Below, piece after piece: positions 15,981 to 33,241 of a stretch of DNA of 64,000 bases. Position 1 is the first letter of the stretch. Each line of letters starts with the position of its first letter. Position numbers and translations under genes: made by a program. Under the pieces are notes generated by a model. That model did not search any database. It saw only the letters and a list, made by a program, of their open reading frames with translations, and was not told the origin of the DNA. This stretch comes from Spirochaetaceae bacterium (GTDB lineage: Bacteria > Spirochaetota > Spirochaetia > SZUA-6 > Bin103): positions 1 to 64,000 of the forward strand of contig JAPPGB010000129.1 of NCBI GenBank assembly GCA_028821475.1. The letters are read 5' to 3'.

Positions 15981-16320
15981 TCCTCCTGTTGCGGCGCTGC
16001 CGGTCTGCCGGCGGCGCCGTACTTGATGTGATGAGTTCGTTGGTATTCTGTCAGCACATTGGTTTCCCCTGCAAGCTCCCGCGGCGCAAGGAACGCCGTA
16101 GGGCGCCGCAAGGGCCTTAAGGATGTAGCGGTTTACAGATGGATGCCTTGCGTCGGATACTTCGCGGCTCACAGGAGGCGCACCAGATGAGCGAAGTCCT
16201 GGGCCGCGACCCGATTTCAGCGCCGGCGAGCAGCTACCGTGAGTACCGGCATGCGGGTACCGGGAAACGAGGTCCGGGGCGAAGGGCTGGTGATCACAGA
16301 CGCCCGATGGAGATACAAGC
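15981..16320. other. Intergenic region between aapJ and apnO
   Basis: This 340-bp divergent region should carry the promoters for aapJQMP (minus) and the apionate operon (plus). AGGAGG for aapJ is at its left edge. I see no convincing -35/-10 pair, riboswitch or further gene. Confidence 0.4.
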
Positions 16321-17148
16321 ATGAAGATTGCGTTGCTGGGAGCCGGCGGCAAGATGGGCTGCCGCATTGCTGACAACTTGCTGCATGACGGCACCAATGA
16401 GATCGCCGCGGTGGAGGTGTCGGCTGCGGGCCGCGCCAACGTTCAGGAGCGCGGACTGGAGGCCGTATCGCCTGAGCAGGCAGTCCCCGGCGCCGGGGCG
16501 GTGATCCTGGCGGTGCCCGACCGGCTGATTCGCACGATCGCGCGCGACGCGGTCCCGCTGATGGACCCTGGGTCGATGCTGATTGCGCTCGATCCGGCCG
16601 CTCCGTACGCCGGGGCGCTGCCTGAACGGCCGGACGTCACGTACTTCTGCACGCACCCCTGTCATCCGCCGCTGTTCGGCGTTGAGACCCGGCCGGAAGC
16701 CCGCGCCGACTGGTTTGGCGGTACGGCTCGCCAGCATATCGTGTGTGCCCTGGCACAGGGTCCGGAGACCGACTATGCCGCCGGTGAGCGGCTGGCGCGC
16801 ACTATCTATGCCCCGGTAATCGACAGCTTCCGGGTCACGGTGGAGCAGATGGCGATCCTGGAACCGACCCTGGTCGAGACCTTCACCGCCACGCTGATCA
16901 GCGCGATGAAAGAGGGGCTGGACACGGTGGTGGAGATGGGTGTGCCGCGCGACGCGGCGGAGGCGTTCCTGTTTGGCCACCTGCGCACCGAGTTCGGCAT
17001 CATCTTCGGGTTCTCCGGGTTCCCGTTCTCTGACGGCGCCCAGCTCGCCGTGGATAAGGCGGGTCCGCGCATCTTCCGCGACGACTGGAAGCAGATCTTC
17101 ACGCTGGAGTCGCTGCGCCGCAGCGTGACCGAGATTGTGGGTGACTGA
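16321..17148 (+). CDS. apnO: D-apionate oxidoisomerase
   Basis: The protein has 275 residues. The N-terminus MKIALLGAGGKMGCRIADNL is a Rossmann NAD-binding fold. The remainder resembles the phosphogluconate-dehydrogenase-like C-terminal domain of the ApnO family (THPCHPPLFG, FGHLRTEFGIIFGF). ApnO converts D-apionate to 3-oxo-isoapionate. The assignment rests mainly on context: the next two genes are a RuBisCO-like protein and a DUF1537 kinase, and an ApnL-type lactonase is beside them, the known apionate gene set. It overlaps the next gene by 8 nt if that gene begins at GTG 17141. Confidence 0.8.
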   Translation: MKIALLGAGGKMGCRIADNLLHDGTNEIAAVEVSAAGRANVQERGLEAVSPEQAVPGAGAVILAVPDRLIRTIARDAVPLMDPGSMLIALDPAAPYAGALPERPDVTYFCTHPCHPPLFGVETRPEARADWFGGTARQHIVCALAQGPETDYAAGERLARTIYAPVIDSFRVTVEQMAILEPTLVETFTATLISAMKEGLDTVVEMGVPRDAAEAFLFGHLRTEFGIIFGFSGFPFSDGAQLAVDKAGPRIFRDDWKQIFTLESLRRSVTEIVGD

Positions 17149-18439
17149 TGCGGTGACCGAGGCAGCGCCGCCCGATGCGACGCTGGCGACGTACCGGATC
17201 GAGACCCCGCTGGCGCTGGACAGAGCCCTGGGCATGCTCGCCGGCGAAGGATCCACGGGGACCTTCGTCCCGGTCCTCGGTGAGACCGACGCGCTGAAAG
17301 CCCGGTTCGCCAGCCGCATCGTGGCGGTGCGCGAGCTGCCGCCGTCCGCTGCGGCGTCCCTGTCAAGTCGCAAGGACCCGGGTGCCGGTGCGACCTATCG
17401 GCGCGTGGAGGTCGACGTCAGTGTCCCGCTGGAGGCGACGGGAACGCAGCTCACCGCGATTCTGGCCGCGGTGGCCGGCAACGTGTTCGAACTCGGCGAG
17501 GTGACCGGCATGCGCCTGACCGACCTGCGCCTCCCCCACGCCGTGCTCGCAGCGCACCCGGGGCCGGCACACAGCGTCACCGGTACCCGTCGATTGAGCG
17601 GAGTCGCGGACGGGCCGATCATCGGCACCATCATCAAACCCAGCATCGGGCTCACCCCGGAGCAGACCGCGCAACGCGCCGGCGAGCTGGCCGCGGCCGG
17701 CGTGGACTTCATCAAGGATGACGAGCTGCTGGCCGGTCCCGCGTACTCGCCGCTGCAGCAGCGGGTGCAGGCGGTCATGCCGGTGCTGCGGCAGGCGGCA
17801 GACCGCGCCGGCAGACAGGTCATGTATGCGTTCAACATCACCGCGGACACGCTGGATGAGATGCTGCGCAACCATGACCTGGTACACGCCGCAGGCGGGA
17901 CCTGTGTGATGGTCAGCGTGCACCAGGTCGGAGTGACCGGCGTGCGCACGCTCCGTGAGCGGTGCCGGCTGCCGATCCACGGGCATCGCAACGGCTGGGC
18001 GCAACTGACTCGCGCGCCCGCGCTGGGGCTGGAGTTCCGGGTCATGCAGCAGGTGTGGCGCTTGGCCGGCATCGACCACCTGCACGTCAACGGCATCGGC
18101 AACAAGTTCTGGGAAAGCGACGAGTCGGTGGTGGCGTCGCTGCGGTCCTGTCTGCGGCCGCTGCGTAATGAGTCCGACCGCGCCATGCCGGTGATCTCAT
18201 CAGGTCAGTGGGGCGGACAGGCGCCGGCCACGCTGCGCAGGGGCGGGACACAGGACCTGATGTACCTGGCCGGAGGCGGAATCCAGGGTCACCCCGGCGG
18301 TATCGCGGCAGGCGTGTGCGCCGTGCGTGCGGCGTGGCAGGCGGCCCGCGACGGAATCGACCTGGCGGACGCCGCCCGCGACGTCCCGGAGCTGGCAGCG
18401 GCACTCGACGCATTCGGGGCCACGCGGCGACCGCAGTGA
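17141..18439 (+). CDS. oiaX: RuBisCO-like protein, 3-oxo-isoapionate-4-phosphate decarboxylase
   Basis: The protein has about 432 residues. The RuBisCO fold is plain: IIGTIIKPSIGL (Lys about 166), VDFIKDDELLAGP with the carbamylated lysine (about 192) and metal-binding Asp and Glu, HGHRNGWAQLTR, and phosphate-binding SGQWGGQAP and GGGIQGHPGG. The two lysines are 26 residues apart, as K175 and K201 are in RuBisCO. With apnO and oiaK as neighbours the best call is OiaX, which decarboxylates 3-oxo-isoapionate 4-phosphate to a tetrulose phosphate. A transcarboxylase/hydrolase (OiaT) role is the main alternative. GTG 17153 is another possible start. Confidence 0.8.
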   Translation: MTDAVTEAAPPDATLATYRIETPLALDRALGMLAGEGSTGTFVPVLGETDALKARFASRIVAVRELPPSAAASLSSRKDPGAGATYRRVEVDVSVPLEATGTQLTAILAAVAGNVFELGEVTGMRLTDLRLPHAVLAAHPGPAHSVTGTRRLSGVADGPIIGTIIKPSIGLTPEQTAQRAGELAAAGVDFIKDDELLAGPAYSPLQQRVQAVMPVLRQAADRAGRQVMYAFNITADTLDEMLRNHDLVHAAGGTCVMVSVHQVGVTGVRTLRERCRLPIHGHRNGWAQLTRAPALGLEFRVMQQVWRLAGIDHLHVNGIGNKFWESDESVVASLRSCLRPLRNESDRAMPVISSGQWGGQAPATLRRGGTQDLMYLAGGGIQGHPGGIAAGVCAVRAAWQAARDGIDLADAARDVPELAAALDAFGATRRPQ

Positions 18440-19839
18440 AACTCGTCTACCTGGGCGACGACGTCACCGGGACCGTCTCCGTCGCGGAGGCGTTCTGCGA
18501 GTCCGGAGTGCGCAGCGTCGTGTTCCTGCAACCCCCGACCGCGGAGGATCTCACCGCGCGATTCTCCGGCGTCGTCGCCGCAGGAGTAGCCAGTGGCACC
18601 CGGAGCATGCCGCCTGACGCCCTCCGCCATGAAGTGCGCCGCATTGCGCGCAGCCTGGCGGAGCTCGGTCCGGAGTTGTTCCTCTACAAGGTCTGTTCCA
18701 CCTTCGACTCGTCGCCGGACACCGGCAGCATCGGTGCAGCCCTGGAGGAGTTGGCGTCCCTGTTTCCGTCGCGGGTGGTGCCGGTGTACCCGGCGGCGCC
18801 GCGCTTTGGCCGCTACACCCTGTTCGGCAACCACTTCGCGGCGCTCTGGGATGAGGTGCTGCGGCTCGACCGCCACCCGTCGCTGGCCCAGCATCCGTCA
18901 ACTCCCATGCAGGAGGCCGACCTGCGGCGCCATCTTGCCGCGCAGACCGGCCTGCGCCAGCGCCTGGCTGACGTACGCACGGTTGCGGCGGGCCCCGACC
19001 AACTCACCGCCGCCTACGTGGGCGGTGGCGCGGACGGCGACCTCGTTGTCACCGATTCCCTGACGGCGCAACACGTCGACACGGTCGGCGAGGCGGTGTG
19101 GCGGTTGGTCGAGTCGGAGCAGACCAGGCTGGTGTGCGCCTCGCAGGAGCTGGTGCTCGGTCTGGTTGCGGCGTGGCGGCGGCGCGGATTCTCGCTGCGC
19201 CAGCGCCTCCCGGACCCGCCGGTGCCGGCGCCGCGAGCGCTGCTTGCCGTGTCCGGCAGCGGCGCACTGCAGACGGAACACCAGATCCAGCGTGCCGTGG
19301 ATGGGGGTTTTCGCGAGATCGCGCTGCAGACGCCCGGGCTGGCCGCGACCACCTGGAACGCTGAAGTGGCGCGGGTGACCCGGCAAGCCGGAGCCCTGCT
19401 GGCGTCAGGGACCTCCGTGGTCGTGCACACCGCACGGGGACCGAATGACCCGCGCATCCCGGCGACCCGCGCCGCCGCCGGGGGCAGCGCGACGCGGCGC
19501 CTGGGAGAAACCGCGGCGCGCCTCATCCGCGACCTGGTGGCCGGCGGTCAGGCCCCCCGCCTCGCCTTGCTCGGCGGCGACTTCTCCGGCGCAGTGCTGC
19601 GGGCGCTGCAGGCCACGGCGCTGGAGATCGCGCATACGTTCGCAACGTCGGCGCCGGTTACCTATCTGCATAGCAATGACCGTGAGCTGGACGGCTTGCA
19701 GGTGGGCCTCAAGGGCGGCCAGGCGGGGAGTCCGGACTGGCTGCTGGACGTTGCCCGCCAACCGATAGCCTCCGCGCGCCGGCGCATCCCGGCCTGGGAT
19801 CACGCGCCGGCAGATCCGTCCAGGCGCAGCACGGAGTAG
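18436..19839 (+). CDS. oiaK: 3-oxo-isoapionate kinase, DUF1537 family
   Basis: The protein has 467 residues and starts at GTG 18436, in a GTGA overlap with oiaX. The N-terminal domain begins KLVYLGDDVTGTVSVAEAF, the substrate-binding part of four-carbon acid sugar kinases. The C-terminal nucleotide-binding domain carries LALLGGDFSGAVLRAL and the GLQVGLKGGQAGSPDWL end. It should phosphorylate 3-oxo-isoapionate for OiaX. The last 40 bp overlap the convergent apnL gene. The usual ADDLTG motif is GDDVTG here. Confidence 0.82.
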   Translation: MKLVYLGDDVTGTVSVAEAFCESGVRSVVFLQPPTAEDLTARFSGVVAAGVASGTRSMPPDALRHEVRRIARSLAELGPELFLYKVCSTFDSSPDTGSIGAALEELASLFPSRVVPVYPAAPRFGRYTLFGNHFAALWDEVLRLDRHPSLAQHPSTPMQEADLRRHLAAQTGLRQRLADVRTVAAGPDQLTAAYVGGGADGDLVVTDSLTAQHVDTVGEAVWRLVESEQTRLVCASQELVLGLVAAWRRRGFSLRQRLPDPPVPAPRALLAVSGSGALQTEHQIQRAVDGGFREIALQTPGLAATTWNAEVARVTRQAGALLASGTSVVVHTARGPNDPRIPATRAAAGGSATRRLGETAARLIRDLVAGGQAPRLALLGGDFSGAVLRALQATALEIAHTFATSAPVTYLHSNDRELDGLQVGLKGGQAGSPDWLLDVARQPIASARRRIPAWDHAPADPSRRSTE

Positions 19840-21692
19840 GCAGGCAGCTCGAACTCGGGGTGCTGTACGGCGCCGGCCTCGGCGTGGAAGCCTTCCGGAT
19901 CCGCGGCTGCCGCACGCGCAACCGCTGCGTCCAGCCGCCGTCCGCGCCAGCGCAGGGGCGTGCGCCCGGACAACCGCACCTGCTGCGACGAGTTTGAGAG
20001 GTTTCCCAGCAGGATCCTGACGCCATGCGCGGTTCGCAGCGCGACGCCGCAAATGGCCTCGGGCAGGCTCGAGGTGAGCCGCAGCACGGGAGCATCGGCG
20101 TTGCCGGACAGATCGCGCAGCACGTGAAACGTCGGAAACACGCCGCCAGGCCATGCGGCGACCGGTCCCGCGCGCGCGGGACTCCCCTGCCGGGACATGA
20201 TGCCGAGCCAGCCGCTCAACTGAAAGTAGGTCACGCACGCGGCGCCTGCCGCGGCGAGCGCGCCGACGCTGCCCGCCGTCCAGGCCGCACACCAGAGGCT
20301 CGGCTGACGCGGGTCGACCTGCCGTGGGAGCTGTCCAGGGGCCGGGGGCGGCTCGGCCGCGGTGGCGTTGGGATTCTCCCGCATGCGCAGCGTCACCGGG
20401 GTCACGGCCACCGGTGCGCCCCGTGCCAGTCGCCGCGCGCTGCGCACCACGTCCCCCTGCGCGCTGATGGTCTCTGCCATCGATGCGTCGTCAAAGGCAT
20501 GCACCTGCGGGTTGATGCTGAAGCACACGCCGTCCAGGCAGTCCAGCGGCGGCCGGTTGCGGTTCAGCTCGGTGAAGAAGTGGCGCGACCCGACGAACAC
20601 CGGAGCAGGTGCGCCGCCGCCTGCGTGGCCGCGCACCTGCTCCGCTGCGGCGCGGGCGCCCACCTTCGCATCCACGATCCACCGCGCCAGCGGGGTGTGC
20701 GCCCCAACCCGGCGCACCTGTTCAGCCAGGGGGTGATCCGGGATGTCGTTGCTGACGGCTGCCTCGGCCGGCACCCCCAGCGCCGCCGCCATCGCGAGCT
20801 GCGCCGGACGGGGGGCGACGCGCAGGTGCGCGAGCTGCAGCGCCGAGCATCGCGCAAGCTCCTGACTGGTGAGCGTGTAGTCGTCACCGTCGGCTCCCAC
20901 TCCGAGCCGTGGGAGTCGCCCCACGGCGCCGCCAAGCCGCACCTCGACCACCGCTGTGCCGGTGCTCGCAACCCGGCGCGAACGCCGCGGCTCCTCCACG
21001 GTGATCCGCACCACCTGGCGAACCCGGGTTCCCGCCGGCACCTCGACCGGAAACGGCTCCGCCAACGGCGTACAGTAGGTCTTGTACGAGGCGTCCGTCC
21101 AGTTGCGCTGGTCCTCCGTCTCGAACTCGTCGCCGCTCATCTCCACGGTGACGAACGTCGACGGCAACGGTTCGTGGGTGATGCTGCGCAGGTTCAGGAA
21201 CGGCTGGTTGGGCGCCACGTGGCGCGGGAAATGGCTCTCGGTGATGCGTCCATCGGTGTGCGCTACCGTGCACGCCTGCCCGGCACACGCGGGCGGATGC
21301 AGCACGCAGAACCCGATCCGGTTGCGCAGGAAGCCGCTGTGGGCCTCTCCGTCGAAGCTGAACGTCAGGGAGCGCGCCGTCGCCTCGACCCGGCCCTGCC
21401 AGGAGAAGGCGATTCCCGGCGCCTGATGATCGACCCGGAACTCAACCGTGAACGTCTCGCCGCTGGTGTGGACGTGGAGGTCGTGCACGCTGGCCGGCAC
21501 GGTACCCCAGTTGCGATCGCGTACCGCGGCGTAGATGCCGCGCACCACTTCGACGCCGCGGAAGCGTATCCAACGCACCGCCTGCTCCTGGAACGCGCAC
21601 CCGAGGGGGCCCGCGCTCAGCACCAGCGGGGGCGGCTGCGCGGAAGCGCGGCCGGTCTGGACCTCCAGCTCCGTCAGGTCACCGGCGCTCAC
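19800..21692 (-). CDS. apnL: D-apionate lactonase
   Basis: The protein has 630 residues, the usual size of ApnL. The N-terminal beta-rich domain contains EVVRGIYAAVRDRNWGTVPA, which I recognise from apionate lactonases. The middle domain has FVGSRHFFTELNRNRPP and GVCFSINPQVHAFDDASMAE, and the C-terminus is another beta domain ending in SVLRLDGS. It hydrolyses D-apionolactone to D-apionate before ApnO. It is convergent with oiaK and divergent from the BKACE gene, so regulation may be shared with the latter. Confidence 0.8.
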   Translation of the reverse strand: MSAGDLTELEVQTGRASAQPPPLVLSAGPLGCAFQEQAVRWIRFRGVEVVRGIYAAVRDRNWGTVPASVHDLHVHTSGETFTVEFRVDHQAPGIAFSWQGRVEATARSLTFSFDGEAHSGFLRNRIGFCVLHPPACAGQACTVAHTDGRITESHFPRHVAPNQPFLNLRSITHEPLPSTFVTVEMSGDEFETEDQRNWTDASYKTYCTPLAEPFPVEVPAGTRVRQVVRITVEEPRRSRRVASTGTAVVEVRLGGAVGRLPRLGVGADGDDYTLTSQELARCSALQLAHLRVAPRPAQLAMAAALGVPAEAAVSNDIPDHPLAEQVRRVGAHTPLARWIVDAKVGARAAAEQVRGHAGGGAPAPVFVGSRHFFTELNRNRPPLDCLDGVCFSINPQVHAFDDASMAETISAQGDVVRSARRLARGAPVAVTPVTLRMRENPNATAAEPPPAPGQLPRQVDPRQPSLWCAAWTAGSVGALAAAGAACVTYFQLSGWLGIMSRQGSPARAGPVAAWPGGVFPTFHVLRDLSGNADAPVLRLTSSLPEAICGVALRTAHGVRILLGNLSNSSQQVRLSGRTPLRWRGRRLDAAVARAAAADPEGFHAEAGAVQHPEFELPAYSVLRLDGSAGA

Positions 21693-21783
21693 GAGGTCTC
21701 CTCACCGAACCTGTCCAGCGAAGCGAGCTCACGACGGTCTTCGCCTATCCTATTACATTCGCAACGCCCTGGGGAGGACCTGA

Positions 21784-22611
21784 ATGGACGAGTTGATCAT
21801 CGCGGTTGCACCGTACCCGAGCGAGAAGCAGGTCGAGCGCTTCCCCGGCACACTCGACGTGCCTGACGAGCTCATCCGCTGCTACGACGCGGGTGCCTCC
21901 ATCGGGCACCTGCACGTTCGCGATGCGAACGGCGTCCAGACCCCGGATACCGCGCTGTTCGAGGAGCAGGTTGGTACCGTCCATGCGCGGTGCCCGCTGA
22001 TCATCGAAGGCTCCACGGGCGGGACGCCGGAGAACACGCGCGCGGAGCGTTGCGTGTCCTACCGTGTAGAAGGGGTCGAGGTCGGCTCATTGAACCTGGG
22101 CTCCGTGAACATGTACGGCGCGGTGTTCGCCAACCCGGTGGACGAGATCGACTATTATCTGGGCGAGCTCACCGCCCGGAACCTGAAGCCGTACCTGGAT
22201 TGCTTCGACCTGTCCCACGTCGCCCGGGTCCAGGAGCTTGCCGCGGGCGGCCGGTTGCAGTCGCCGCACCTGTTCGGCCTCGTGCTCGGGTTCCCTGACT
22301 CGTTGCCGTACGAAGACCGCTACCTGGATGCCCTGGTGGCCAACCTGCCCGCCGACTCGCTGTGGGTATTGCATCGCTACCATGCGCCCGGCGCCGCCGG
22401 CTTCATGCGTGCCCTGGAGCGCGGCGGGCATGTCCGGGTCGGCTACGAGGACGGACCGTTTCTCGCCGACGGTGAACGCGCACGCTCCAACGCCGAACTG
22501 GTCGAGGAAGCCGCCGCGCTGGCGCGATCGGTCGGCCGCACGGTCGTCGGCCCGGAACGCGCCCGCGAGTTGCTGGGACTCCCGGCCCTGGAAACGAGTT
22601 CCACCCGCTGA
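21784..22611 (+). CDS. Beta-keto acid cleavage enzyme (BKACE, DUF849)
   Basis: The protein has 275 residues. The zinc-binding pair is in IGHLHVRDANG, and the third ligand lies in VRVGYEDGPFL, both BKACE hallmarks. ELIIAVAPYPSEKQ replaces the usual N-terminal strand. GGAGG lies just upstream of ATG 21784. BKACEs split a beta-keto acid with acetyl-CoA into an acyl-CoA and acetoacetate. It shares a 91-bp divergent promoter region with apnL, and 3-oxo-isoapionate is itself a beta-keto acid, so a link to this pathway is plausible but unproven. Confidence 0.85.
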   Translation: MDELIIAVAPYPSEKQVERFPGTLDVPDELIRCYDAGASIGHLHVRDANGVQTPDTALFEEQVGTVHARCPLIIEGSTGGTPENTRAERCVSYRVEGVEVGSLNLGSVNMYGAVFANPVDEIDYYLGELTARNLKPYLDCFDLSHVARVQELAAGGRLQSPHLFGLVLGFPDSLPYEDRYLDALVANLPADSLWVLHRYHAPGAAGFMRALERGGHVRVGYEDGPFLADGERARSNAELVEEAAALARSVGRTVVGPERARELLGLPALETSSTR

Positions 22612-22781: not shown

Positions 22782-24293
22782 ATGACGTTCGCCCGCACGA
22801 TCCGGGTGGTGGAGACCCACACCGCCGGCATGCCCACGCGCATCGTCACCTCCGGCCTGCCGCCCGTCCCCGGCGCCACCATGGCAGAGCGGGCCGCGTG
22901 GCTGCGCGGCTGCGAGGAGATGACGGCAGTGGCGCGCATGCTGTGCCATGAGCCGCGCGGCCACTCGGGTCAGTTCGGGGCGCTGCTCACCCCGCCCACC
23001 GCGGCGGGGTCGGTTACCGGCGCGGTTTTCTTCTCGCCGGCCTGGAGTGCGGGCGGCTGCGGTCACGCCACCATCGCCATCGCCACCATGCTGGTGGAGA
23101 CCGGGGCGGTGGCCGGGCCGCTGCCGGTGGAGTTCGGCATCGACACCCCGTCCGGGACGGTGACCGCGCGGGTGCACGGTTCGGGCACCGAGGTCGAGTT
23201 CGTGGCGTTCCGGAACGTGCCGAGCTTCCTGTACCGGGCGGACCAGGTGATCGAGGTGCCGGGTGTCGGGGAAGTGCGCGCCGACGTGTGCTACGGCGGC
23301 AATCTGTACGCCTACGTGTGGGCGCCCGACCTGGGGATGCGGGTGCGCGCGGAGAACCTGCCGCGCTTGCAGCAGCTCGGCGGGGAGGTGCGCGAAGCGG
23401 TGATCGGGCAGGTGTCCCTCGACGACTTGCCGCCCGGCGTGCCGGCACGGGTCGGCGGGGTGATGTTTCGCGACGACCCGGAGCACCCCGAAGCCGACAT
23501 GAAGAACGTGCTGGCGGGCAGAGTGGGATTCGACCGCTCGCCGTGCGGCACCGGCACCAGCGGCTGGCTGGCCGCCCTGCACGCGCGCGGACGCCTGGCC
23601 GTGGGCGAGGAATTCGTGAACGAGAGCATTACCGGCGGCCTGTTTCGCGGCCGGGTGCTGGAGGCAACCTCGCGGGGAGCGTTCGAAGCGATCATCCCGG
23701 AAATCGCCGGCAGCGCCTTCATCACCGGCTTCCACGACTTCGTGCTCGATCCCCGCGATCCTTATCCCGGAGGCTTCGACTTCGGTGCCGGCCTGCCGGC
23801 GGCGCCGGAGACGACGGCCGCGCCGGCCGCGGGCGCGCGCGACAAGGTCAAGTTCTACCGCCTGGCGTGGGACGTGATCGGTTCCGAGTACGCCTCGCGT
23901 CACGAGCAGTACGAGCTGTTCTACGCCGGCGCGCCGTTCGTGACGCGCGCCCATTCGTTCCGCACCTTCGACTGGGACGGCGCCACCGGCCTGGTCGACG
24001 ACATGCTCGCCACCTACCGCCTGGAGGAGTCGCGCCGCCGCTACCTTCCATGGCATCTTCCGCATCGCGCCACCGCCCGACATCGACCTGGAGGAGTTCA
24101 TCGAAGGGGCGGTCGACATGCCGCTGCCGCACATCTTCACCATCGACATGATCCGCACGGCGCAGCGCCGCTCGGACCACGTGGTGCCGGCACCGTTCAT
24201 GGACGCGGTGAGCCAGGGCATCTCGTCGTTCAACACCGCCCCGCTTCCCGACCGACGACGCGGACTTCCGCCGGGCGGTACAGCACCTGGTGA
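22782..24293 (+). CDS. Proline racemase / hydroxyproline epimerase family protein with foreign C-terminal tail
   Basis: Residues 1-336 form a complete proline racemase family domain. Both catalytic cysteines are present: GGCGHATIAI (Cys93) and DRSPCGTGTSG (Cys255), as in proline racemase and 4-hydroxyproline 2-epimerase rather than the dehydratase, which has Thr at the second site. The family normally ends near GFHDFVLDPRDPYPGGF. Here the frame continues about 165 codons through a piece of a flavin monooxygenase gene and then out-of-frame sequence. The ribosome site is weak. The domain could still fold, but the tail may destabilise it. Confidence 0.75.
   Translation: MTFARTIRVVETHTAGMPTRIVTSGLPPVPGATMAERAAWLRGCEEMTAVARMLCHEPRGHSGQFGALLTPPTAAGSVTGAVFFSPAWSAGGCGHATIAIATMLVETGAVAGPLPVEFGIDTPSGTVTARVHGSGTEVEFVAFRNVPSFLYRADQVIEVPGVGEVRADVCYGGNLYAYVWAPDLGMRVRAENLPRLQQLGGEVREAVIGQVSLDDLPPGVPARVGGVMFRDDPEHPEADMKNVLAGRVGFDRSPCGTGTSGWLAALHARGRLAVGEEFVNESITGGLFRGRVLEATSRGAFEAIIPEIAGSAFITGFHDFVLDPRDPYPGGFDFGAGLPAAPETTAAPAAGARDKVKFYRLAWDVIGSEYASRHEQYELFYAGAPFVTRAHSFRTFDWDGATGLVDDMLATYRLEESRRRYLPWHLPHRATARHRPGGVHRRGGRHAAAAHLHHRHDPHGAAPLGPRGAGTVHGRGEPGHLVVQHRPASRPTTRTSAGRYSTW
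23829..24033 (+). pseudogene. Fragment of a 4-hydroxyphenylacetate 3-hydroxylase (HpaB) C-terminus
   Basis: In frame with the racemase, DKVKFYRLAWDVIGSEYASR followed by HEQYELFYAG and DMLATYRLEE matches the HpaB C-terminal pattern (LAWDxxGSExxxRHExYExxYxG). About 65 codons remain. There is no start and no HpaB N-terminal domain nearby. Confidence 0.7.
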
Positions 24294-31957: not shown

Positions 31958-33241
31958 TCAGTTCGCGTGCACGGCGATCAGCAGCAGGTCGGAGTCGGCG
32001 TTGGGGAGTTGGAACCGCGTGACGCCGCCGGACACGGACACGTCGGTGGAATAGGGGCGCCGGTTGTCGAGGTCGAGCAGCGTGATGCGGTGGCGGCTCA
32101 GGTCGGCGTTCACCTCCAGGCCCGCGGCGTGCGGCAGGTAGACGGCCACCACCCCGGCGTCGGCGGTGGCGGCGGCGCGGATGGCGGGGTCGGCGTTGGC
32201 CACCAGGGCCTGGTCGGGGGCGAGGTCGGCCAGGCCGAAGGTCTCGAACAGCCAGCGGGCGTACCCGTAGTCCCAGGCGCCCGGCAGGCGTAGCGCCTCC
32301 CACCAGTCCATCGGCACGTACTTGTGGTCGTTCAGAAACCGTTTCTCGCGGGTGTGGAAGCTCCACACGCCGTGACCGCCGTAGGTGACGCCCGCCTTGG
32401 CGCCGGACAGCAGGCTCTGCCAAGCCGCCGCGCGCACCTCCGATCGCGTCCACCGCCCGCGCACCCGCCCGGCGCCGGCAACGCGACCGTGGCCCTCGTA
32501 GCACGGCTCGGAATTGATCACCGGACGCCGAGTCCGGTACGCGGCGAACTTCTCCGCCAGCCGCCACGGCAGGTCGACGCGGTCGGCACCATGTCCCGAC
32601 TGGAACATGTAGAAGTCGACCGCGTCCACGAACTCCTCCGGCAGGTCCGCCTGCGGCGTCAGGTGCATGGAGATCAGCGCATCCGGGCACCCGGCACGGA
32701 TCAGCTCCAGGGCGCGCAGGTAGTAGCGCGGCTCCTCGTCCGACTCCCAGAGCGTGTCGCCGGAGATGAAAAACATCGGCTCGTAGGAGCGAAACCGCCG
32801 CGCGACGTGCGCCACGTACTCTTCCATGATGTCGAACGGCATCGGACCGGCGACCGGGTTGGCGGTCGAACTCTTCGTTCCGGGAACATAGTTGCGCCAC
32901 AGCACGCCGAGCACCGGCACCAGGCCGGCCGCCACCGCCTCGGCCACCATGCGCTCGGCCTTGCCGAAGTAGGCGTCGTTGCGGGCGCCGTAGTCCCAGC
33001 CGCCGTCGCGTGGCGCGAACGGGGCGTCGTTGGTCGCCGCGACGCTGGTATCGTGGTTGACCGGCAGGATGCTGATCTGCAGCGCGGTGAACCCCTGCTC
33101 CCGGCGGAAGCGCACGTACTCGGTCCACGCGGCCTCCGGCACGTTGGAGAACGCCATCCAGGCGGTGTCGGCGAGATAGAAAAACGGCTGTCCGCCCCGC
33201 AGGAACCGATCCTCGGTCGGGGCGACGGTTACGGATGCCAA
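31958..33241 (-). CDS. GH140-like (DUF4038) apiosidase-type glycoside hydrolase
   Basis: The protein has 427 residues. The DUF4038/apiosidase-like fold begins at RGGQPFFYLADTAWMAFSNV and RREQGFTALQISILPVN, continues with PMFFISGDTLWES and VINSEPCYEGH (a likely catalytic glutamate), and ends in a small beta domain (GVVAVYLPHAAGLEVNADLS). GH140 enzymes release apiose from rhamnogalacturonan II; other DUF4038 proteins have other activities. No signal peptide is seen, so it may act in the cytoplasm. A D-apionate gene set lies 10 kb away, which supports an apiose role. Confidence 0.75.
   Translation of the reverse strand: MASVTVAPTEDRFLRGGQPFFYLADTAWMAFSNVPEAAWTEYVRFRREQGFTALQISILPVNHDTSVAATNDAPFAPRDGGWDYGARNDAYFGKAERMVAEAVAAGLVPVLGVLWRNYVPGTKSSTANPVAGPMPFDIMEEYVAHVARRFRSYEPMFFISGDTLWESDEEPRYYLRALELIRAGCPDALISMHLTPQADLPEEFVDAVDFYMFQSGHGADRVDLPWRLAEKFAAYRTRRPVINSEPCYEGHGRVAGAGRVRGRWTRSEVRAAAWQSLLSGAKAGVTYGGHGVWSFHTREKRFLNDHKYVPMDWWEALRLPGAWDYGYARWLFETFGLADLAPDQALVANADPAIRAAATADAGVVAVYLPHAAGLEVNADLSRHRITLLDLDNRRPYSTDVSVSGGVTRFQLPNADSDLLLIAVHAN

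Follow-up and report, generated by a model that had tools for sequence, protein, structure and literature searches.

The analyzed stretch of DNA (hereafter the window, 64,000 nucleotides long) carried a divergent gene of the DUF849/BKACE family beside a set of apionate-type genes (Table 1). The DUF849 gene ran intact from ATG to TGA and encoded a full-length protein of 275 residues, matching Pfam PF05853 over profile positions 2-274 of 274 (194.3 bits, E 3.4e-57), above the gathering score of 24.8. Codon-position GC contents of this reading frame (0.73/0.46/0.85) resembled those of the neighboring genes. As originally predicted, the gene adjoined apnL in divergent orientation. The 91 bp separating the two, which the original prediction took for a shared promoter region, stood as a gap of that length, but no sigma-70-like site was detected in it; the only such site retrieved by the promoter search was upstream of apnO (16132-16161). 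The BKACE gene was on its own transcript, outside the apnO-oiaX-oiaK operon, and may be co-regulated with apnL. A second BKACE gene was found in the genome on contig C58, scoring 345.7 bits.

Table 1. Features of the BKACE-like gene and its surroundings (positions within the window)
Feature	Position	Strand	Evidence and remarks
ApnO-like D-apionate oxidoisomerase	16321..17148	+	Pfam matches only (PGDH_C, KARI_N)
OiaX-like RuBisCO-like protein (RLP), 3-oxo-isoapionate-4-phosphate decarboxylase	17135..18439	+	NF042437, 524 bits, cut-off 700
OiaK-like DUF1537 kinase	18436..19839	+	NF042436, 311 bits, cut-off 700
ApnL-like D-apionate lactonase	19800..21692	-	NF049900, 338.3 bits, cut-off 750; GTG start
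Gap between the BKACE gene and apnL	21693..21783	.	91 bp, genes divergent
Divergent DUF849/BKACE gene	21784..22611	+	ATG to TGA, 275 aa, full-length, intact
Apiosidase-like gene	31958-33241	-	

The genes for ApnO, OiaX and OiaK overlapped end to end, all on the forward strand and beyond apnL from the BKACE gene. OiaK likely started at a GTG at 18436, overlapping the oiaX stop, and apnL was convergent with oiaK and overlapped its end. For ApnL, OiaX and OiaK their own named NCBIfam models were clearly top-scoring; the scores remained below the curated cut-offs, so that these names are homology-based. A complete ApnO-OiaX-OiaK route was encoded adjacent to the window BKACE. ApnL was present in one of the eight genomes searched, the window's own, and both ApnL and this BKACE were missing from the three other genomes of the same family that were searched. 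OiaX-like matches elsewhere in the phylum (26 of 296 genomes) did not exceed 177.6 bits, versus 952.5 bits for the own genome. The window's genome also held a second DUF1537-family kinase (G000:C134:12435-13208), around which no Otn-like partner was found but the kinase itself. Downstream of the BKACE gene, a proline-racemase-like reading frame continued into a 60-residue fragment of an HpaB C-terminal domain, followed by apparently frame-broken sequence (22782-24293), in what looks like a shuffled or decayed stretch. Beyond the apiosidase-like gene, a zinc-dependent alcohol dehydrogenase (reverse strand) and a PhyH-family dioxygenase (forward strand) were encoded between 34228 and 36395.

The best matches to the window protein across all searches shared 30 to 37% identity with it. 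A scan of its own genome's contigs for close relatives returned one locus, 30% identical, and within the same family three of the four genomes, the own one included, had a match (31-36%). At E 1e-3, 45 of the 296 genomes of the same phylum matched, the top scorer at 35% and weaker matches at up to 37%. In another phylum, 27 of 398 genomes had a match at E 1e-25, led by genome G1016 (34%, 143 bits), with one weaker match at 36%. Matches were obtained in 519 plasmid records (top scorer 34.5%) and in none of the phage records. No NCBIfam equivalog cut-off was reached, the best being that of Kce (NF052387), for which the score was half of the cut-off (184.6 versus 382 bits). The protein could be assigned to none of the isofunctional families described so far.

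Active-site residues were compared in alignments with Kce (2Y7D) and up to 51 family members; the number of Kce Tyr145 is that given in PMC12871164. The protein shared with Kce its family, its zinc ligands (H42, H44 and E222 in the window protein) and the equivalents of Arg226 and Asp231 (R218 and D223). It differed at the position of the catalytic-base Glu (Glu143 in Kce, Glu171 in BKACE15), which was occupied by Asp139. Among 51 aligned rows this position was Glu in 47, Val in two, Thr in one and Asp in the window protein alone, the Val, Val and Thr rows being three proteins from RLP clusters. From the alignment ranges, residue 139 lay opposite residue 171 of 8RIO, provided that the stretch is ungapped. 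For BKACE15, E171 is reported to be the catalytic base, with E171L killing activity and E171D leaving about 5% of it (PMC11961710). With Asp139 at the catalytic Glu position, no claim of a working BKACE is therefore made: the zinc ligands named in the original prediction are indeed present, but the statement that the enzyme looks active relied on them alone and was too strong. BKACE activity may be low or lost.

Other positions of the active site were less clear-cut. The Tyr at position 145/173, stated for all BKACEs in PMC12871164, was Phe141 in the window protein; Phe was found in 24 of 38 aligned rows, and the exchange was rejected as an uninformative marker of changed chemistry. Gly224 followed the Glu-Asp pair where most members carry Asn, the GIG/GxG loop of most members was replaced by LHRYHAPG, and the N-terminal NPxxPxTPEE stretch common in the family was missing. 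A structure predicted from two rows (the window protein and L003) had a mean pLDDT of 40.6 and was discarded.

In phylogenetic trees the window protein did not group with any BKACE whose substrate is known and unrelated, a possibility that the original prediction had named as counting against it. In a 51-row tree built without the three RLP-cluster proteins, which are very distant, it formed one clade with a four-member subfamily, to which it was sister (support 100/98; 98 SH-aLRT after removal of six further rows), and in a 41-row tree it joined the subfamily member of genome G151 at 87/95. Forced unions were rejected with Kce (p 0.011), f33 (0.011), pseudo9 (0.023) and L010 (0.023), and not with the L005 group (p-AU 0.065). 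The end branch of the window protein was very long (3.28-3.5), so the sister placement could be an artifact. Of the 54 subfamily-specific positions it carried eight, equal to the best outsider (L031). A one-residue insertion before the GSxN strand, together with Tyr124, was nearly exclusive to the window protein and the subfamily, and an AP motif was common to both.

The subfamily comprised L121 (genome G1016), L127 and L128 (G1061 and G1139) and L100 (G151, from the window's phylum), which shared 48-72% identity among themselves, the G151 member being 48-52% identical to the others. Identity to the window protein was 30-34%, so the function of the latter may differ. In L121 (6278-13050) the gene order was OtnK-OtnC-DeoR-OtnI-BKACE-SBF symporter-HbpS-Asp/Glu racemase, with 527.8 bits for OtnK, 296.5 for OtnC and 287.7 for OtnI (cut-offs 350, 250 and 325), OtnI lying just below its cut-off. 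L127 (9159-16226) and L128 (7917-15072) contained OtnK-OtnC-OtnI-Asp/Glu racemase, three genes in TRAP position and the BKACE. Scores in G1061 and G1139 were 572.3 and 544.6 bits for OtnK, 270.7 and 234.3 for OtnC, and 304.6 and 286.1 for OtnI; OtnK was above its cut-off in all three Otn clusters, while OtnC of G1139 and OtnI of both genomes were under theirs. No obvious dehydrogenase was seen in the L127 and L128 clusters. The short contig of L100 (1271-6435) carried an Asp/Glu racemase, TRAP-like genes and an FCD-GntR regulator, and no Otn genes; TRAP genes in L127, L128 and L100 were named by eye.

Within the order to which G1016 belongs, four of 197 genomes gave a match: G1016 itself, G1061 (52%), G1139 (50%) and G1163 (37%). 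The G1163 protein (L129) fell outside the subfamily and adjoined a thiolase and two CoA-transferase genes, the context expected of an ordinary BKACE. A five-row profile matched 13 of 369 genomes at E 1e-35, and since the sole member among them was that of G1061 (470 bits, the next match scoring 153), the subfamily is rare. No paper on a BKACE subfamily in 3-oxo-tetronate clusters was found in the literature, and it is apparently undescribed. Its members kept the catalytic Glu and were encoded within the operon, whereas the window protein had Asp139, its gene was divergent, and its neighbors were ApnO, OiaX, OiaK and ApnL instead of OtnK, OtnC and OtnI. The window OiaK and OtnK nevertheless belonged to the same DUF1537 kinase family (Pfam SBD_N/NBD_C), and the substrates of both kinases are hydroxylated beta-keto acids.

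Recurrence of DUF849 genes beside apionate genes was examined by scanning 27 stretches with a BKACE profile, each spanning roughly 15-20 kb and including an OiaX-like or ApnL-like gene. Plasmids provided 24 of them, hand-picked for genus variety (from 365 records with OiaX-like matches, 300 at a stricter limit, and 236 with ApnL-like matches), and the other three were the three matches among 385 genomes. A DUF849 gene occurred in four stretches (L081, L088, L091 and L093), all among the 14 with OiaX-like genes and neither ApnO nor ApnL, versus none of the 13 with ApnO and/or ApnL (Fisher p 0.098, in a hand-picked sample). In L088, the BKACE and RLP genes were some 6 kb apart. The other three genes (L081 6819-7703, L091 3291-4178, L093 13429-14307) formed a separate clade of DUF849 proteins, encoded on plasmids in clusters that also held aldo/keto reductases, an OiaX-like RLP and a DUF1537 kinase; for the L093 protein, 19 plasmid records matched at E 1e-60. 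They were rejected as orthologs, with a branch of 3.81 and no equivalents of the zinc Glu, Arg226 or Glu143, and judging from these residues they are unlikely to be BKACEs despite their annotation. A Rufibacter plasmid (L092, 8986-13677) carried in a row an RLP, a DUF1537 kinase, an Asp/Glu racemase and a bile acid:sodium symporter, the last two being the accessory pair also seen in L121, and a BKACE was absent from it.

DUF849 is a known family, and its BKACEs are described as moving the C1-C2 unit of the substrate onto acetyl-CoA (PMC6365646, PMC12871164). A BKACE in a sugar-acid pathway also has a precedent: in deoxyribonate catabolism, the BKACE-family PS417_07250 acts on 2-deoxy-3-keto-ribonate, according to PMC6365646. 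By description, the likeness to the window case is that of a BKACE-family enzyme in oxidised sugar-acid catabolism; the substrate of PS417_07250 has a C2 methylene, and an acetyl-CoA acetyltransferase is described as required in that pathway. BKACE is not named in the accessible parts of papers on apionate or isoapionate, and no paper was found that links a BKACE with either apionate or DUF1537 kinases, a weak negative with subscription papers mostly out of reach.

The original prediction gave 3-oxo-isoapionate a second fate, cleavage by the window enzyme with acetyl-CoA. The C1-C2 transfer by BKACEs requires a carbanion at C2, and 3-oxo-isoapionate is 2,4-dihydroxy-2-(hydroxymethyl)-3-oxobutanoate, with a quaternary C2. 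As this C2 bears no hydrogen, the standard first step would be blocked, and the compound would presumably be cleavable only by initial attack on C3. Ordinary BKACEs yield acetoacetate, which could be used in this organism since the genome holds a single strong match to a thiolase and a single CoA-transferase-like gene; both, however, were on other contigs, whereas the ordinary BKACE of L129 adjoins such genes. The position of the gene beside apnL and the deoxyribonate precedent speak for the proposed fate, and one of the two genomic BKACE genes would come to lie no more than 200 bp from the apn span by chance with a probability of about 0.2%, with the proviso that an arbitrary gene has many possible neighbors. 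Against it stand Asp139, the structure of the substrate, the lack of a BKACE in all 13 other ApnO/ApnL stretches and the ApnO-OiaX-OiaK route next door. Standard acetyl-CoA-dependent cleavage of 3-oxo-isoapionate by the window enzyme is thus unlikely.

We tentatively prefer to regard the window protein as an accessory enzyme of acid-sugar catabolism and not as a standard BKACE for 3-oxo-isoapionate. Since its nearest relatives stand in four-carbon sugar-acid gene clusters, the enzyme probably handles a sugar acid. It would be a DUF849 enzyme that folds, probably binds zinc and has diverged from ordinary BKACEs, with its closest kin in the small subfamily of four-carbon acid-sugar operons (OtnK, OtnC, OtnI, a racemase-like protein and transporters). 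The substrate would most likely be a small beta-keto acid with several hydroxyl groups, or a sugar acid related to it, that enters or leaks from the apionate pathway, with zinc holding its carboxylate and keto oxygens and the weak base Asp139 acting where other BKACEs have Glu. Of the role first proposed, a BKACE-type enzyme in oxidised acid-sugar catabolism gains support, and the specific cleavage of 3-oxo-isoapionate does not.

Somewhat less likely, the protein is a BKACE of the ordinary kind, though divergent, that acts on an unrelated beta-keto acid and was brought beside apnL merely by horizontal transfer or rearrangement. DUF849 is promiscuous and widespread, as seen from its matches across the phylum and in plasmids, the window gene has no companion on its strand, the best NCBIfam score is that of Kce, and the neighborhood looks shuffled because the next gene downstream is the proline-racemase/HpaB composite. 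Yet the protein joined no ordinary-BKACE clade, forced unions being rejected for four of the five clades with a completed test, and the residues Asp139 and Gly224 are both uncommon.

A DUF849 protein with impaired catalysis or with a chemistry other than that of BKACEs, in the manner of BsfD or cis-epoxysuccinate hydrolase, is an unlikely alternative, although DUF849 members with different chemistry do exist. BsfD (flavophos biosynthesis, 9ZSC), a distant match to the window protein (P0001, 65.4 bits), makes 2,4-dioxopentylphosphonate by acetyl transfer without cleavage and has Phe at the Tyr position, as described in PMC12871164. Phe141 is not diagnostic, given how common Phe is at this position; Asp139, in light of the residual activity of E171D in BKACE15, and the LHRYHAPG loop speak for altered chemistry, while the retained zinc ligands, Arg218 and Asp223 argue against it. 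Least probable of all, and very doubtful given the chemistry and neighborhoods set out above, is a second route for the apionate intermediate by acetyl-CoA-dependent cleavage of 3-oxo-isoapionate.

The case of the window protein illustrates that zinc ligands alone are no proof of a working BKACE in a DUF849 protein. The conserved OtnK-OtnC-OtnI-racemase-BKACE cluster makes an acid-sugar role directly testable with few enzymes. A bolder and rather improbable proposal is that a BKACE branch was recruited to polyhydroxylated acid-sugar beta-keto acids such as 3-oxo-tetronate and 3-oxo-isoapionate, where a C3-first split of C2-C3 would provide a kinase-free bypass of the DUF1537 step: Asp would serve as base for the initial attack of CoA or water on C3, and the products would be a glycerate-type fragment together with glycolyl-CoA or glycolate. 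If this were true, a group of genes annotated as '3-keto-5-aminohexanoate cleavage protein' would be misnamed, and acid-sugar degradation would gain a second, kinase-free exit.
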